64,000 nucleotides of DNA from Allobosea sp. (GTDB lineage: Bacteria > Pseudomonadota > Alphaproteobacteria > Rhizobiales > Beijerinckiaceae): positions 124,001-188,000 of the forward strand of contig NZ_JAUYTP010000008.1 of NCBI RefSeq assembly GCF_030695125.1. Direction: 5' to 3'. The position numbers and the translations under genes were made by a program. The notes beneath the pieces were generated by a model, which was not told where the DNA came from, made no database searches, and was given only the letters and a program-made list of their open reading frames with translations. Shown piece after piece: positions 51,043 to 64,000 of this stretch (positions within the stretch are counted from its first letter, which is position 1; every line of letters begins with the position of its first letter).

Positions 51043-51558
51043 ATGACGCTGCTGGCCGCCATTCCCTATGCTTCCGGTTTCCAGATCGACCAGTTCATGG
51101 CCGATCTCGCCCTGCGCCTGAAGGGCCGCGGCCTGCGCCTCGGTGGCGTGGTTCAGCACAATGATGGCAGCTGCGACCAGGGCTGCCTGTCGATGGCGCT
51201 GGAGGATCTCGCCAGCGGGACCCGTTTTCCGATCAGCGAGAACCGGGGCGCGGCATCGACCGGCTGCCGGCTCGATGCGCGCGGCCTCGCTGCGGCCGGT
51301 GGTGCCTTGACCGCCGCGCTCGCTGACGGGACGGACCTCGTCATCGTCAACAAGTTCGGGCGACAGGAGGTTCTGGGGCAGGGCCTGCGCCAGGAAATCG
51401 CCGCCGCGCTTCTGGCCGACGTGCCCCTGCTGATTGCCGTGCGGCAGGATTTTCTGCCCGCCTGGCGGGAGTTCGCCGGCGACGACTGGATCTCGCTCGC
51501 CGCGCAGCCCGAGATCATTGAAGCCTGGGCGCTGTCGCTGGCGTGCGTCACGGCCTGA
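51043..51558 (+). CDS. DUF2478-type protein
   Basis: 171 aa; QIDQFMADLALRLKGRGLRLGGVVQHN...DLVIVNKFGRQEVLGQGLRQEIAAAL; next to fdhD and mobA. Confidence 0.75.
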   Translation: MTLLAAIPYASGFQIDQFMADLALRLKGRGLRLGGVVQHNDGSCDQGCLSMALEDLASGTRFPISENRGAASTGCRLDARGLAAAGGALTAALADGTDLVIVNKFGRQEVLGQGLRQEIAAALLADVPLLIAVRQDFLPAWREFAGDDWISLAAQPEIIEAWALSLACVTA

Positions 51559-51580
51559 GCGCCCCGCTGGAGCAGCCGCC

Positions 51581-52474
51581 ATGGCGCAGGATATGAGCTT
51601 CCTTAACGACTATCTCGTCCGGCCCGATCCGCAGGCGGTCCGACTTGGTGCCACCGTCTCCGGCATCGACCAGACGGGCGCGACCGTCGAGACCCGCGTC
51701 GTCACCGAGCGCGCGCTGACGCTCTATCTCAACGCCCAGGAGATCGTCACGATGATGACGATCGGCGACCATCCCGACGCGCTGGCGCTGGGCTATCTGC
51801 TCAACCAGAACATGCTCAAGCGCGGCGATGTCGTCGACGCCATCGATTATGACGAGGAACTCGAGGTCGTGGTCGTCCGCACGCCGGAGCGCACCAATTT
51901 CGAGGAGAAGCTGAAGAAGAAGACGCTGACCTCGGGCTGTGCCCAGGGCACGGCTTTCGGGGACCTGATGGAGGCGATCGACGAGATCGAATTGCCCAAG
52001 GCGGAGCTACGCACGAGCTGGCTCTACGCGCTGACCAAGAAGATCAACACCACGCCCTCGCTCTATCTGGAGGCCGGCGCCATCCATGGCTGCGTGCTCT
52101 GCGAGGCCGACAGGCCGCTGGTCTACATGGAGGATGTCGGCCGCCACAACGCCGTCGACAAGGTCGCCGGCTGGATGTTCCGGCACGATGTCGATCCCGC
52201 GAAGATGATCTTCTACACCACCGGCCGCCTGACTTCGGAAATGGTGATCAAGACGGTGCGCATGGGCATCCCCGTGCTGGTCTCCCGCTCCGGCTTCACC
52301 GAATGGGGCGTCGAACTCGCCCGCAAGGCCGGGCTGACCCTGATCGGTCGGGCCCGCGGCAAGCGCTTCGTCGCGCTCGCCGGCGAGCAGAACATCGTCT
52401 TCGATCAGGATCCCGACACGGTCGAGGAGGAGGGCGGCAAGAGCCGGCGCAAGGGGGCTGATCGTGATGATTGA
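51581..52474 (+). CDS. fdhD: Formate dehydrogenase accessory sulfurtransferase FdhD
   Basis: LTSGCAQGTAFGDLM, GCVLCEADRPLVYMEDVGRHNAVDKVAGWM, FYTTGRLTSEMVIK. Confidence 0.94.
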   Translation: MAQDMSFLNDYLVRPDPQAVRLGATVSGIDQTGATVETRVVTERALTLYLNAQEIVTMMTIGDHPDALALGYLLNQNMLKRGDVVDAIDYDEELEVVVVRTPERTNFEEKLKKKTLTSGCAQGTAFGDLMEAIDEIELPKAELRTSWLYALTKKINTTPSLYLEAGAIHGCVLCEADRPLVYMEDVGRHNAVDKVAGWMFRHDVDPAKMIFYTTGRLTSEMVIKTVRMGIPVLVSRSGFTEWGVELARKAGLTLIGRARGKRFVALAGEQNIVFDQDPDTVEEEGGKSRRKGADRDD

Positions 52475-52624: not shown

Positions 52625-53251
52625 ATGAGCGCCCCTCCCACCCTCGGCCTGCTCCTCGCCGGCGGACTCGCGCGCCGCATGGGCGGCGGTGACAAGCCGC
52701 TGCGGACCATCGCGGGCCGCACCATCCTCGCCCATGTGATCGAGCGCCTGGCGCCCCAATGCGACGGGCTCGTGGTCAACGCCAATGGCGACCCCGGCCG
52801 CTTCGCCGATTACGGCCTGCCGGTGGTCGCCGACAGCGTGCCCGATTTCGCCGGGCCGCTCGCCGGCATTCTCGCCGGGCTCGACTGGATGGCGGTCAAT
52901 CGGCCTCAGAACGAATGGCTCGTCAGCGTCGCCGCCGATACGCCCTTCATACCCCACGATCTCGTCGCCCGCCTGCATGCGGCGCGCGAGGCGCAGAACG
53001 TCCCGCTCGCCTGCGCAGCCTCGGGCGGCTGGACGCATCCGGTGATCGGCCTCTGGCCGGTTCGGCTGCGCGCCGATCTGCGCCACGCGCTGACAGTCGA
53101 TGACGAGCGCAAGATCGACCGCTGGACCGCCCGCCATGGCTGCGCCAGCGCGCAGTGGCCGGTGGTGCCGGTCGATCCCTTCTTCAACGCCAACAAGCCC
53201 GAGGACCTCGACGAGGCCGAGCGGCTTTTCGCCACCCTGCCGCCGGCTTGA
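52625..53251 (+). CDS. mobA: Molybdenum cofactor guanylyltransferase
   Basis: [25 protein letters not shown]...[22 protein letters not shown]. Confidence 0.93.
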
Positions 53252-53321
53252 ACCCCCTGCGGTCCTTCGCTATCTGTCCTGATAAGAGCCGCTTATCGCT
53301 GCCGCGCTCCGGGGGAAAATC

Positions 53322-53447
53322 ATGAAGTCGTTTGTCGCCGCCATCGCCGTCGCCGCCATCCTCGCCTTTGGCGCCAGCCTCGTGCTGAACGACTATTTCC
53401 AGAAGCCGGTCGACGTTGCCTTCTCGACGGGCGGCGTCAGGCTCTGA
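53322..53447 (+). CDS. Small membrane hypothetical protein (41 aa, not in the ORF track)
   Basis: MKSFVAAIAVAAILAFGASLVLNDYFQKPVDVAFSTGGVRL: N-terminal TM and defined C-terminal tail. Confidence 0.6.
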   Translation: MKSFVAAIAVAAILAFGASLVLNDYFQKPVDVAFSTGGVRL

Positions 53448-54996: not shown

Positions 54997-55097
54997 GGCG
55001 GGAACCGGTTGCGATGGTCGCGCTTCATAGGCCGCGAGCTTGGGGCGGGGCAACTGGCCGCTTTGTCACGGCGCCCGCGCCGATCCATGATGGCGCC

Positions 55098-56372
55098 ATG
55101 CGAACGATCCTTCAGCCTCTCGCCGTTCTCGCTCTCCTGAGCCTGCCCGCTTCCGCCCAGGAACTCCGCGGCCATGGCGGCCCGGTGCGGGCGATTGCGG
55201 TCTCGCCCGACGGTCTGTCTGCGATGACCGGCTCCTTCGACCAGTCGGCGATCCTCTGGAGCCTGTCGGGCGGCGCGGCGCAGGCGGTGCTGCGCTTTCA
55301 CGAGGGCGCGGTGAACGCGGTCGTCGCCGTTCCCGGCCTCGGCTTCGCCACCGGCGCCGAGGACGGCCGCATCGCGCTGTGGCGCGGCGAGGCGGCCGTG
55401 CCGGTGCGGATCGTCGAGGGGCACAAGGGCCCCGTGGCCGCGCTGGCGGTCTCCGCCGATGGGCGCCGCATCGCCTCCGCCTCCTGGGACGAGACTGTGC
55501 GGGTGACGGCGCTCGGCGATGGTGGCGCGCGCCTGCTCGAAGGCCACAAGGGGCCGGTCAACGGCGTCGCCTTCCTGCCCGGCGGCGGCCTGGTCAGCGC
55601 CGGCTATGACGCGACGCTGCGGATCTGGCCGGCCGAGGGCGGCACGGAGCGCGTCGTCACGCTGCCGGCGGCGCTGAACGGCGTCGTCGTCGCGCCCGAT
55701 GGCGAGATCGCGGTGGCCGCAGCCGATGGGCGCCTGCGGCTGTTTTCGCCCGAGGGCGAGGCGCGCGCCGAGATCGTCGTGGGCGAGACGCCGCTGATCG
55801 CACTCGCGCTCTCCGCCGACGGCACGACGCTGGCCGCTGGCGGCCTGCGCGGGCAGGTGGCGCTGATCGACCGGAAGGCACGTGCGGTGCGCGCCACGCT
55901 CGTCGGGCCGGGCCTGCCGGTCTGGTCGCTGGCCTTCCTGCCGGATGGCCGGCAACTGCTTTCGGGCGGGGCCGACCGGCTGGTGCGGCGCTGGAACGCG
56001 GTCACGGGCGAGCATATCGGCACGGTCGTGCCGCGCGCGGGCGCCGATGTACTGGCCGCCTTCAACGGCGAACGCGGCGCGCAGGTCTTCCGCGCCTGCG
56101 CCGCCTGCCACACTTTGACCCCGTCGGACGGCAACCGCGCCGGGCCGACGCTGCACGGGATCTTCGGCCGCCGCATCGCGAGCGCACCCGGCTACGCCTA
56201 TTCCGAGGCCTTCAAAGCCATGGACATCGTCTGGACCAAGGAGACGGTGGCAAAGCTCTTCGAGGTGGGCCCCAACGCCTACACGCCCGGCACCAAGATG
56301 CCCGAGCAGACCATCGGTTCGGCTGAAGACCGGCAGGCGCTGGTCGATTGGCTGGAGAAGGTGACGCGCTGA
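55098..56372 (+). CDS. WD40-repeat / c-type cytochrome fusion protein
   Basis: Signal peptide, WD40-like repeats (GHGGPVRAIAVSPDGLSAMTGSFDQSAILWSL...), C-terminal CAACHT haem motif with GPTLHGIFGRR and M ligand region YTPGTKMP. Confidence 0.9.
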   Translation: MRTILQPLAVLALLSLPASAQELRGHGGPVRAIAVSPDGLSAMTGSFDQSAILWSLSGGAAQAVLRFHEGAVNAVVAVPGLGFATGAEDGRIALWRGEAAVPVRIVEGHKGPVAALAVSADGRRIASASWDETVRVTALGDGGARLLEGHKGPVNGVAFLPGGGLVSAGYDATLRIWPAEGGTERVVTLPAALNGVVVAPDGEIAVAAADGRLRLFSPEGEARAEIVVGETPLIALALSADGTTLAAGGLRGQVALIDRKARAVRATLVGPGLPVWSLAFLPDGRQLLSGGADRLVRRWNAVTGEHIGTVVPRAGADVLAAFNGERGAQVFRACAACHTLTPSDGNRAGPTLHGIFGRRIASAPGYAYSEAFKAMDIVWTKETVAKLFEVGPNAYTPGTKMPEQTIGSAEDRQALVDWLEKVTR

Positions 56373-58544: not shown

Positions 58545-58572
58545 GAACGCATATATGGAATTGGAGGCGTTC
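58545..58572. promoter_or_regulatory. Interrupted inverted repeat in the divergent FDH-locus promoter region
   Basis: GAACGC(58545-58550)...GCGTTC(58567-58572); extended TTGGAACGC/GCGTTCAAA matches 8 of 9. Confidence 0.35.
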
Positions 58573-58623
58573 AAAAGAAACGAACGATGCGCACTTCGTC
58601 GCGCCATCGGAGGATTTGCATCC

Positions 58624-59367
58624 ATGGCGGCCAGCGCCCAGCGTCCTGATGATCTGCGCCGCGAGCCGGTTCTGCCTCCGGGCTTCTCGCTCGTGACCCT
58701 GCGCGAAGCGGGCGACGCCTTCGCCCATGCCTGCGCCATCGCCCCGGAAGCCGGCGCGGCGACGCTGGTCTGGACGCGGCGTTTCGACGTCATCGAGTTC
58801 GCGGTCGTGCTCGAGCCTGAGAACCCGCTCCGCGAGGCGCGGCTGGCGCATTACCTCGCGATGAATGCGCTCGCCGACGCACTCGCCATCTACAGCCCGC
58901 CCGAGCGCCCGATCCTGTTCCGCTGGCCCGACGCGCTGATCTACGATCTCGGCCTGATCGGCGGCGGCCGGCTCGCCTGGCCGGACGCCTGCGCCGAGGA
59001 CGAGGTGCCCGAATGGATCGTGTTCGGGGCGATGCTGCGCGCGACCACGATGACGCCCTTCGCTGTTGGCCAGGTCGGTGTCGGCATGGCCGAGGAGGGC
59101 TTCGAGGAGATCGACGCGGTCGATCTGATCGAGGCCTTCGCCCGGCATCTGATGCTGGGTGTCACGCGCTGGCAGAGCGCCGGCCCCAAGGCGACGGCGC
59201 TGCGCTGGCTCGACCGGCTCGACAAGGTGATAGGCACCCGCCACGGCATCGAGCCGAACGGCGACCTCGTGGCGACGACCCAGGCGGGGACCAACCGCAA
59301 AAGCCTGGTCGAAGCGTTGGCGCGGGTCGACTGGCTCGATCGCGAGAGCGGCGGGCCGAAGCTGTGA
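58624..59367 (+). CDS. Biotin/lipoate protein ligase-like protein
   Basis: 247 aa; LARHYLAMNALADALAIYSPPERPILFRWPDALIYDLGLIGGGRLAWP-type sequence; conserved FDH-locus context; start 58624 preferred. Confidence 0.7.
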   Translation: MAASAQRPDDLRREPVLPPGFSLVTLREAGDAFAHACAIAPEAGAATLVWTRRFDVIEFAVVLEPENPLREARLAHYLAMNALADALAIYSPPERPILFRWPDALIYDLGLIGGGRLAWPDACAEDEVPEWIVFGAMLRATTMTPFAVGQVGVGMAEEGFEEIDAVDLIEAFARHLMLGVTRWQSAGPKATALRWLDRLDKVIGTRHGIEPNGDLVATTQAGTNRKSLVEALARVDWLDRESGGPKL

Positions 59368-60934: not shown

Positions 60935-61453
60935 ATGACCCAAGTCCATATCGAGGTCGGCATCGTCGTCGAGCGCCGCGCGGTCGAATCGCCCTGGATC
61001 GATCATGCCTGGGCGCCGCTCGCCGTCCTGCCGGAGCCGCCGCCGCTGGCGCCCTGGACGTCGCTGCAGGGCACGCCCGAGCGCCAGAGCTTCTATCTGG
61101 GCCCGGCGACGCTGACGCTGCACTCCGTCGATACCGCCCATTTCCGCGAGAATTTCCAGGCCGGCCGCGCCAAGCTCTGGGTCGCCATCCGCCCGACCGG
61201 GATCGAACCCGAGATCGAGTTCGTCGGGGTCACCGCCGACCCTTTCGAGGGTGAGGTCTACTCCGAGAATGTCGCCGATCTCGTCGAGGCGCTGCCGATG
61301 CCGGAAGCGATCGCCGAGCAGGTGCTGGCTTTCTTCGAGGCGCATCATGTCGAGCGCGAGTTCATCAAGCGCAAGCGCGCCGAGCATGATCCGCGCAAGG
61401 GCGGGGCGCCGCGCCCGGAAAGTGGCCTGCGCCGCCGTGAGGGCGAGGCATGA
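60935..61453 (+). CDS. DUF3305-type protein
   Basis: 172 aa; VGIVVERRAVESPWIDHAWAPLAVLPEPP; upstream of the DUF3306-like gene, ATGA overlap. Confidence 0.75.
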   Translation: MTQVHIEVGIVVERRAVESPWIDHAWAPLAVLPEPPPLAPWTSLQGTPERQSFYLGPATLTLHSVDTAHFRENFQAGRAKLWVAIRPTGIEPEIEFVGVTADPFEGEVYSENVADLVEALPMPEAIAEQVLAFFEAHHVEREFIKRKRAEHDPRKGGAPRPESGLRRREGEA

Positions 61454-62172
61454 GCGCCGGCTCGCCCGAAGACGAAGGCTTCCTGAGTCGCTGGTCGCGT
61501 CGCAAACGTGAACTGGTCGAACGCGACGAGGCAGCTCCCGCACTGCCGCCCGCCGCGGAGGTGCCAGCCACCGCTCGGCCGACCGACCCCGAGGTCGCCG
61601 AGGTTGCCGAACCCGAGCCGGTCGAGCCACCTTCGCTCGACCTGATCGACAAGGATTTCGATCTCGCCTCCTGGCTGAAGCAGAATGTGCCGGAAGCTTG
61701 GAAGCTGGCGGCGATGCGGCGTGCCTGGGAAAACGACCCGGCGATCGCCGGCTTCGAGAATCCGGCGCGTGACTACGCGCTCGACTGGAACACACCGGGC
61801 ATGGCACCGGGCTACGGCCCCCTGACGGAATCGGATGATGTCGGGGCGATGGTGCGCAGCATTTTCGGGGAGCCGCCGCCGGCCGAAGCGCAGACGCTGG
61901 CGGGTCACGAGGGTGCAGGCGACGGCATGTCGCATCAACTTTCGTCTAATTACGAAAATGACGCGTTGAATGCCGCAGCGCGAGATGACGCGGCCGAGGA
62001 GGGGGGGGCGGTTTCGGTTCGATTGAGCGAAGAGAGCGAAATCACGGCCGATCCGGCGCCTCTTCCCGAGATCGCCGCGCAGCCAGTCTATGCTGCAGTG
62101 CAGCAAACGGCCGATCCCGCCATCGTTTCGCCGCGCGGGCGGAAGCGCGGAGGCGGTGCAATTCCAATCTGA
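61450..62172 (+). CDS. DUF3306-type protein
   Basis: 240 aa; GFLSRWSRRKRELVE N-terminus and basic C-terminus RGRKRGGGAIPI. Confidence 0.75.
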   Translation: MSAGSPEDEGFLSRWSRRKRELVERDEAAPALPPAAEVPATARPTDPEVAEVAEPEPVEPPSLDLIDKDFDLASWLKQNVPEAWKLAAMRRAWENDPAIAGFENPARDYALDWNTPGMAPGYGPLTESDDVGAMVRSIFGEPPPAEAQTLAGHEGAGDGMSHQLSSNYENDALNAAARDDAAEEGGAVSVRLSEESEITADPAPLPEIAAQPVYAAVQQTADPAIVSPRGRKRGGGAIPI

Positions 62173-62219
62173 ATAGAGATTGGAATAATTATATTTCTGA
62201 GCGATAAGCACGCGTTATC
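62161..62219. promoter_or_regulatory. AT-rich leader with two inverted repeats upstream of the HTH-TorD gene
   Basis: ATTCCAATCT-GAATAG-AGATTGGAAT (62161-62186, perfect 10-bp arms) and GATAAGCACGCGTTATC (62203-62219). Confidence 0.5.
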
Positions 62220-62276: not shown

Positions 62277-63086
62277 ATGCGTGACCCGGCACTGGAAAAA
62301 GCGATCGGCAGCGTGGGCGGCGTCAGGGCTCTGGCGCGCAGCCTCGGCATTTCGCAGCCGGCGATCTCGAGCTGGAAGCGCGTTCCCGCCGATCGCGTCC
62401 TGTCCGTCGAGGCGACGACCGGCATTCCGCGCAGCGACCTGCGTCCCGACCTCTACCCAGATGGGGGGGCTTCTGTGATGGCGGCTCAGTCGGAGATCGC
62501 GGTGCCCCTCATGATCGACGAGGTCGACGAGGCCCGGGCCCGCGAATGCGAGCTGATCGGCGCCCTGCTCTGGCGCGCGCCGACCGCCGAGACGCTGGCG
62601 GCGCTGCGCGGCCTGCAGGGGGATGCCTCGCCGCTGGGCATGGCGCATCTGGCTCTGGCCGAGGCCGCCGACGAGGCCACGCCCGAAAGCCTGCGCGACG
62701 AATTCTTCGAGCTCTTCATCGGCGTGGGCCGTGGCGAGCTCCTGCCCTACGGGTCCTATTATCTGACCGGCTTCCTGCACGAGCGGCCGCTCGCCCTGGT
62801 GCGCGAGGATATGGGGGCGCTCGGCCTGGCGCGCGACGCGCGCGCCGGCGAGCCGGAGGACCATATCGCCGTCCTGCTCGACATCCTAGCGAAGCTGATC
62901 CGGGGCGAGGTCGCGGCCGACACGGTCGATGCCGATCGGTTTTATGCCCGACACATCGAGGCCTGGGGCGAGCGCTTCTTCGCCGACCTCGAAGTCGCGA
63001 AAGCGGCGAAATTCTACAAGGCCGTCGGCCGGCTCGGCAGCCTGTTCCTGTCGATCGAGACACAAGCCGCGAGGCTGCCGGCATGA
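62277..63086 (+). CDS. HTH (YdaS/Cro-like)-TorD/DmsD chaperone fusion as sequenced
   Basis: N-terminal 62277-62459 encodes ALEKAIGSVGGVRALARSLGISQPAISSWKRVPADRVLSVEATTGIPRSDLRPDLYP; from ATG 62478 a TorD-like chaperone (LRDEFFELFIGVGRGELLPYGSYYLTGFLHERPL). Junction is a G7 tract. Confidence 0.8.
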   Translation: MRDPALEKAIGSVGGVRALARSLGISQPAISSWKRVPADRVLSVEATTGIPRSDLRPDLYPDGGASVMAAQSEIAVPLMIDEVDEARARECELIGALLWRAPTAETLAALRGLQGDASPLGMAHLALAEAADEATPESLRDEFFELFIGVGRGELLPYGSYYLTGFLHERPLALVREDMGALGLARDARAGEPEDHIAVLLDILAKLIRGEVAADTVDADRFYARHIEAWGERFFADLEVAKAAKFYKAVGRLGSLFLSIETQAARLPA

Positions 63087-63130: not shown

Positions 63131-63331
63131 ATGTCGAAACCGAAAGAAGCCGGCAGCCCGGCCGTCGATCGCCGTAGCTTTTTCAAGGCGCTCGGCGCCG
63201 GTGCCACCCTGGCGGCGACGCCGGCCATGGTGACGCCGGCCGCCGCCGTCGATCCCGGCAAGGAAGAAACCAAGGCGCGCTACCGCGAGTCGGAGCACGT
63301 CAAGGACTTCTACCGCGTCAACCGTTACTGA
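63131..63331 (+). CDS. Small Tat-signal protein of formate dehydrogenase loci (TIGR02811-type)
   Basis: 66 aa MSKPKEAGSPAVDRRSFFKALGAGATLAATPAMVTPAAAVDPGKEETKARYRESEHVKDFYRVNRY; twin-arginine DRRSFFK. Confidence 0.82.
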   Translation: MSKPKEAGSPAVDRRSFFKALGAGATLAATPAMVTPAAAVDPGKEETKARYRESEHVKDFYRVNRY

Positions 63332-63345
63332 GAGGCGCCAAAACC

Positions 63346-64000
63346 ATGCTGATCAAGCGCAAAACCGCCGACGTCCAGCGCGGCCGGCTCCAGGCGGCGA
63401 TCGCCGGCCTGTCCTCCGGCGTGATGGATCGCCGTGCCTTCCTTCGCCGGTCCGGCCTCGTCGCGGGCGGCGTCGCCGCTGCCGGCGCCCTGCAGATCGG
63501 TTCGGTCCGCAAGGCCGAGGCCGCCGGCCTGGGTCCGGCGACGGGCACCAAGATCGTCAAGAACATCTGCACCCATTGCTCGGTCGGTTGCACGGTCAAG
63601 GCCGAGGTCGTCAATGGCGTCTGGGTCGGCCAGGAGCCGGCCTGGGAAAGCCCGATCAACCGGGGCTCGCATTGCGCCAAGGGCGCTGCGGTTCGCGAAC
63701 TCGTCCATGGCGACCGCCGCATCAAGTATCCGATGAAGCTGGTCGATGGCCAGTGGCAGCGCATCTCCTGGGACGTCGCGATCAATGAGATCGGCGACAA
63801 GATGATGGAGATCCGGGCCAAGTCGGGCGCGGACTCGGTCTATCTGCTCGGCTCGGCCAAGTTCTCCAACGAGGGCGCCTACCTGTTCCGCAAGTTCGCG
63901 GCCTTCTGGGGCACCAACAACGTCGATCACCAGGCGCGCATCTGTCACTCCACCACGGTCGCGGGTGTTGCCAACACCTGGGGCTACGGCGCGATGACGA
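63346..64000 (+). CDS. fdhA: Formate dehydrogenase catalytic (alpha) subunit, truncated by the window end
   Basis: Open to window end; MLIKRKTADVQ...Tat DRRAFLRRSG; CTHCSVGCTVKAEV 4Fe-4S motif; DHQARICHSTTVAGVANTWGYGAMT Mo/W-ligand region with Cys. Confidence 0.93.
   Translation, partial: MLIKRKTADVQRGRLQAAIAGLSSGVMDRRAFLRRSGLVAGGVAAAGALQIGSVRKAEAAGLGPATGTKIVKNICTHCSVGCTVKAEVVNGVWVGQEPAWESPINRGSHCAKGAAVRELVHGDRRIKYPMKLVDGQWQRISWDVAINEIGDKMMEIRAKSGADSVYLLGSAKFSNEGAYLFRKFAAFWGTNNVDHQARICHSTTVAGVANTWGYGAMT

Follow-up and report, generated by a model that had tools for sequence, protein, structure and literature searches.

A chaperone gene with an N-terminal helix-turn-helix domain

The window (the whole stretch of 64,000 nucleotides that was analysed) carries genes of a formate dehydrogenase (FDH) cluster, among them one that is open from an ATG at 62277 to a stop codon ending at 63086 and that joins a helix-turn-helix (HTH) domain to a TorD-type chaperone domain. 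This gene and its neighbours are as follows:

51434–52474, + strand: fdhD (PF02634), start uncertain
52625–53251, + strand: mobA, molybdenum cofactor guanylyltransferase (TIGR02665, above cut-off)
60935–61453, + strand: DUF3305 gene (PF11749)
61450–62172, + strand: DUF3306 gene (PF11748)
62277–63086, + strand: HTH-TorD fusion gene, 269 aa, coordinates including the stop codon
62277–62459, + strand: Cro/YdaS-type HTH domain, residues 1–61 (PF15943/PF14549; Cro 3bd1 by sequence and fold)
62460–62516, + strand: linker, residues 62–80, variable and of low confidence, with a G7 tract at 62463–62469 and an in-frame ATG at 62478
62517–63083, + strand: TorD/DmsD-family chaperone domain, residues 81–269 (PF02613; DmsD/TorD/NarJ folds; invariant columns)
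63131–63331, + strand: small Tat-signal protein of the formate_TAT type (TIGR02811, ‘formate dehydrogenase region TAT target’; RRSFFK motif)
63346–64000, + strand: fdhA, catalytic molybdopterin subunit with a Tat signal, continuing to 66324 in the contig

In the contig, fdhA is followed by fdhB and then by the gene for a cytochrome b subunit. Also near the FDH genes are an ORF at 55014–56372 encoding WD40 repeats and a C-terminal cytochrome c domain, and a biotin/lipoate-ligase-like gene at 58555–59367 (PF16917), which heads the DUF6352-DUF3305-DUF3306 row of the cluster.

The earlier note on this DNA had described a YdaS/Cro-like HTH of about 61 aa at the N-terminus of a TorD/DmsD chaperone, both in a single ORF, and profiles, PDB matches and predicted fold all agreed with that description. 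The N-terminal part matched the YdaS family PF15943 over residues 6–61 (E = 3e-14, 53 bits against a cut-off of 30) and the P22_Cro family PF14549 over residues 7–48 (35.9 bits against a cut-off of 30.2), and its recognition helix, SQPAISSWKR, lies around residues 26–35. The C-terminal part matched the NarJ/TorD/DmsD family PF02613 over residues 116–235 (E = 8e-27, 94.4 bits against a curated cut-off of 22.2) and contains the conserved motifs GRGxxLPYxSYYxTGFLHE and EPEDH. When a profile of the protein's own family was compared with the PDB, residues 4–73 matched Cro Xfaso1 (3bd1) and the remainder matched DmsD/TorD (3cw0, 3efp, 1n1c). Both domains were present in the predicted structure, with the linker (residues 63–77) and some loops of the TorD part at low confidence. 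Foldseek assigned the predicted model an all-helical TorD/DmsD fold, matching DmsD (3efp/3cw0), YcdY (9m26) and NarJ (8jzc) with a probability of 1.00, and also returned Cro (3bd1) for the HTH part.

The protein is an ortholog of neither TorD nor DmsD by the NCBIfam equivalog cut-offs (56.7 bits against 132 and 40.3 against 162, respectively). It was the only PF02613 member found by a genome-wide profile search, so any TorD-type chaperone work in this genome falls to it. RefSeq labels such proteins, in plasmid records, ‘molecular chaperone TorD family protein’ and nothing more. Two Tat-signal proteins, which the earlier note had also pointed out, do follow directly. The first, TIGR02811-like, scored 45.2 bits, just below the cut-off of 48.45, and is presumably a client of the chaperone; the second is FdhA.

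An error of assembly or a frameshift could have created such a gene from two ORFs, since the G7 tract lies at the junction and one G fewer would give a TGATG overlap dividing them. Independent relatives at 54–90% identity, however, all hold the single frame with linkers that differ from ours in length and sequence and that lack the G7 tract. This excludes a homopolymer or assembly artefact, which we regard as next to inconceivable, and it disposes of the concern over the G count that the earlier note had raised; the fusion is real. Nor were the HTH and TorD always encoded as separate ORFs in relatives, as that note had allowed they might be: the relatives were either fused or without the HTH, and in the TorD-only loci checked there was no separate HTH ORF adjacent to TorD (best HTH match, E = 0.6). 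The G7 tract is followed by the in-frame ATG with Shine-Dalgarno-like spacing, an arrangement that is not kept in relatives. An internal start at this ATG, yielding a separate TorD protein, was considered and rejected because the ATG is not conserved in them.

Distribution and origin of the fusion

Judged by its named relatives, the window belongs to a Bosea genome. The two domains were fused in frame in 24 Bosea genomes, and in a 25th the gene was truncated by the end of a contig. The genus was represented by 37 genomes; the gene was present in all 25 that carry DUF3305, our marker for the FDH cluster (one of them being the copy cut at the contig end), and missing from all 12 that lack DUF3305. 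The best 80 matches in named genomes all aligned over both HTH and TorD as a single ORF (80/80). The fusion occurs in Bosea, Salinarimonas, Chelatococcus, Afipia, Bradyrhizobium, Phreatobacter, Pseudolabrys and other genera, dozens in all. An even sample of 398 genomes from across the order had the full-length fusion in 38 among the matches listed, and TorD without the HTH in many more genomes. Comparison of relatives places the recognition helix in a conserved part of the protein; the linker varies both in length and in sequence.

Three fusion proteins (L245, L246 and L247) have a clearly different recognition helix, and the TorD tree places them with TorD-only proteins, outside the main fusion group (starred split). 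This position suggests that a Cro-type HTH was probably joined to a TorD chaperone more than once, the alternative being many losses. That the fusion looks repeated argues that the coupling is useful. Three TorD-only proteins (L217, L219 and L213) branch within the fusion group of the TorD tree and have probably lost the HTH.

A conserved dyad upstream of the fusion gene

An alignment of Bosea upstream regions contained a conserved island in otherwise drifting DNA, GYGATAAG-N5-CATTATCAC, at 62203–62219 of the window. The elements considered in this section are:

62161–62186, + strand: terminator-like hairpin, located between DUF3306 and the operator; weak (1 found against 0.4 expected in shuffles)
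62203–62219, no strand assigned: candidate operator GATAAGCACGCGTTATC, with the core ATAR-N7-YTAT at 62204–62218, upstream of the fusion gene
53281–53297, no strand assigned: second candidate operator GATAAGAGCCGCTTATC, an exact copy of the dyad upstream of a 41-aa ORF
53322–53447, + strand: 41-aa membrane-type ORF with the hydrophobic stretch MKSFVAAIAVAAILAFGASLVLNDYF...

A generalised form of the dyad, ATARG-N5-CYTAT with at most two mismatches, was found at 80/80 named loci; all 80 of their 200-bp upstream regions contained the dyad, against 0.4% of dinucleotide-preserving shuffles. The core ATAR-N7-YTAT was present, exactly, at 115/115 fusion loci, a set made up of the 80 named and 35 further loci that includes many close relatives and spans several families. 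Between genera little beyond the dyad is similar in the upstream DNA, and exact copies were also found at two fusion loci outside the order (L240 and L243). The centres of the half-sites are 11 bp apart, or about one helical turn. At TorD-only loci the dyad was present within 400 bp in 2 of 40 cases; one of the two is L219, which may have kept an operator-like dyad while losing its HTH. When whole genomes were searched with the strict pattern CATAGG-N5-CCTATG, the fusion promoter was the only exact match in several of them (for example G405, G438, G439, G440, G441 and G416).

The sequence of the dyad is linked to that of the HTH. Residue 29, which homology to Cro places in the recognition helix, is Ala, or Ser/Thr, and it matches operator base 5 (A or G) in 114 of the 115 loci, an agreement that rests on three to four changes on the tree and thus on too few for a sign test. 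It also had the highest normalised mutual information with base 5 of all protein columns, those of TorD included (0.71, against 0.44 for the next). The base-5 rule was chosen after the data had been seen: a first rule, pairing residue 29 with the outer base, had held in the first 80 loci and failed in the wider set. At the divergent-HTH fusions L245, L246 and L247 the ATAR-N7-YTAT dyad was absent. Because an operator-like dyad is found at all 115 loci and covaries with the recognition helix, these comparisons strongly support the view that the fusion protein is a transcription factor. L246 and L247 may have another dyad, of 14 bp, just upstream of the gene start (ACAAACAAGTTTGT / ACAAATGAATTTGT), seen in these two genomes only.

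A consensus scan found no consensus sigma70 promoter at the dyad, and repression is therefore presumed from the protein family and the position of the site. Given the hairpin between DUF3306 and the operator, a separate transcription unit may begin at the fusion gene. The same region (62161–62195) contains a second conserved dyad-like element, approximately TTGGAAY-NR-TTSYAA, also seen in the corresponding regions of L118 and L141. In Bosea this element precedes the operator, and in Bradyrhizobium (CTTGGAATAATTCCAG) it follows the operator; it may be part of a promoter or a binding site for a different regulator.

The second copy of the dyad in the window precedes the 41-aa ORF, which sits between mobA and an Mrp-like gene in the same FDH cluster as the fusion. 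Many Bosea genomes, though not all of them, have such a pair of sites, spaced by 9–10 kb, and the dyad was found before the 41-aa ORF in six of the eight Bosea loci in which both ORF and upstream DNA could be read. It was absent in Chelatococcus and Afipia, although the ORF occurs near FDH there. Two related MAGs, L117 and L119, have two dyads ahead of an operon for a tupBCA-like tungstate transporter, located about 7 kb from the fusion gene (15960–16100 in L117 and 9144–9220 in L119). No dyad was present there in six further genomes whose tup genes are near FDH (0/6), and we rejected a broad tungstate regulon on these grounds. Also rejected was a third site, GATAAT-N5-CTTATATG, before the biotin/lipoate-ligase-like gene of other Bosea; it lies outside the window and fails the strict pattern. 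The dyad is thus essentially limited to the fusion's own promoter and to extra sites that are lineage-specific, and this restriction suggests that the regulon is mainly the own operon.

Proposed function and its alternatives

Both halves of the protein belong to families with known behaviour. YdaS acts as a repressor of its own promoter, on which it binds palindromic sites (PMC8630535), and it has been argued that its Pfam family is misnamed a ‘toxin’ and has a Cro role instead (PMC5917428). TorD binds its client at two places, the Tat leader and the core of the apo-enzyme, and the significance of TorD dimers is debated (PMC10609526). We consider it likely that the fusion protein is bifunctional, a maturation chaperone that is also an autoregulator, and most likely a repressor, of the FDH operon, tuning synthesis to the amount of immature enzyme. 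From the sequences we infer that the protein binds DNA, represses, acts as a chaperone and is switched by its occupancy. The Cro/YdaS HTH would bind the ATAR-N7-YTAT dyad of its own promoter as a dimer, and in this state would control, most likely repress, an operon of HTH-torD, the Tat peptide and fdhABC. The TorD domain would handle the Tat leader and apo-FdhA, and binding of apo-FdhA would alter the dimer state or the DNA affinity in a manner comparable to group II BirA. Since one polypeptide would do both jobs, the simplest function is to match the synthesis of chaperone and FDH to the amount of immature enzyme.

More tentatively, the signal could be apo-FDH or the Tat leader itself, the fusion protein acting as a one-component transcription factor that reads unfinished enzyme and adjusts how strongly the operon is transcribed, together with other genes in certain lineages, such as those for tungstate uptake; we find this slightly less likely than not. 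Such an occupancy effect, a coupling that the earlier note had suggested as well, could have either sign. If the free form represses, the supply of chaperone would rise when apo-enzyme accumulates; if the occupied form represses, production of enzyme that cannot be finished would stop.

The protein shares family, fold and linkage to a Tat-exported molybdoenzyme with the TorD/DmsD chaperones (NarJ subfamily, PF02613), and differs from them by its additional N-terminal Cro/YdaS HTH. With YdaS and P22-type Cro (PF15943, PF14549) it shares the HTH by profile, PDB sequence and fold. The YdaS protein of CP-933P has a palindromic site upstream of its own gene (PMC8630535), and the fusion likewise has a predicted site; unlike the HTH of these regulators, that of the fusion belongs to a chaperone encoded at a metabolic locus rather than to a phage switch, with the predicted site ATAR-N7-YTAT. 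Group II BirA works alike, one chain being both a modifying factor and a transcriptional regulator with an N-terminal HTH (PMC4016012, PMC6391492), and by this analogy is the nearest working counterpart of the fusion. The BirA and TorD families both have HTH-bearing and HTH-less forms. There is, however, no homology between them; the putative client here is an apo-molybdoenzyme rather than a biotin acceptor, and sensing is a proposed property of the fusion.

Other readings share parts of this evidence. The protein could be a plain autorepressor that acts through the dyad to hold chaperone and FDH levels constant, with TorD merely sharing the chain or supplying dimerisation and with no sensing of occupancy. 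Cro/YdaS proteins do autorepress, with no ligand reported (PMC8630535), and a disordered, variable linker offers no obvious route for a signal. A stand-alone HTH would serve equally well for this purpose, however, whereas the fusion has been kept in many genera and seems to have originated repeatedly, and we think this reading rather unlikely. It is improbable, in our view, that another FDH regulator, for example a molybdate or tungstate sensor, reads the dyad while the fusion protein's HTH recognises other sites or no site at all. The two dyads before the tungstate-transporter-like operon in L117 and L119 are what one would see for a metal sensor, yet the six other genomes with tup beside FDH lack them. 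The dyad moreover follows the HTH and not the FDH cluster (115/115 fusion loci against 2/40 TorD-only loci), it is missing where the HTH of the fusion diverges, and residue 29 tracks its variable base better than any other column.

It might also be that the HTH is a remnant, or has a structural role only, and that the TorD chaperone carrying it does not act on DNA. TorD-only relatives do without it, and the several TorD-only proteins inside the fusion group suggest that it can be lost; conservation of the recognition helix alongside a drifting linker, together with the operator dyad and its covariation with the protein, makes this highly improbable. We therefore return to the bifunctional chaperone and autoregulator as our preferred reading.

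A survey of the NarJ subfamily describes dmsD/torD with fdhGHI and upstream DUF3305/DUF3306; its text contains none of the terms by which we looked for HTH, DNA binding, fusion or transcription (PMC4464133). We found no earlier description of an HTH-TorD protein in the open full-text literature. What appears to be new here is the combination, predicted from sequence, of a TorD-family chaperone and a Cro-type repressor domain in one chain, with a conserved candidate operator.

The link between enzyme maturation and expression is otherwise made via metal sensors and two-component systems. The recurring fusion and its matching dyad suggest a direct connection between assembly of the enzyme and gene expression, and, if this is true, a chaperone equipped with a DNA-binding domain and an operator would report directly on how well a complex molybdoenzyme matures. 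The fusion is widespread in Bradyrhizobium, Afipia and Bosea, yet it is annotated merely as a TorD chaperone.
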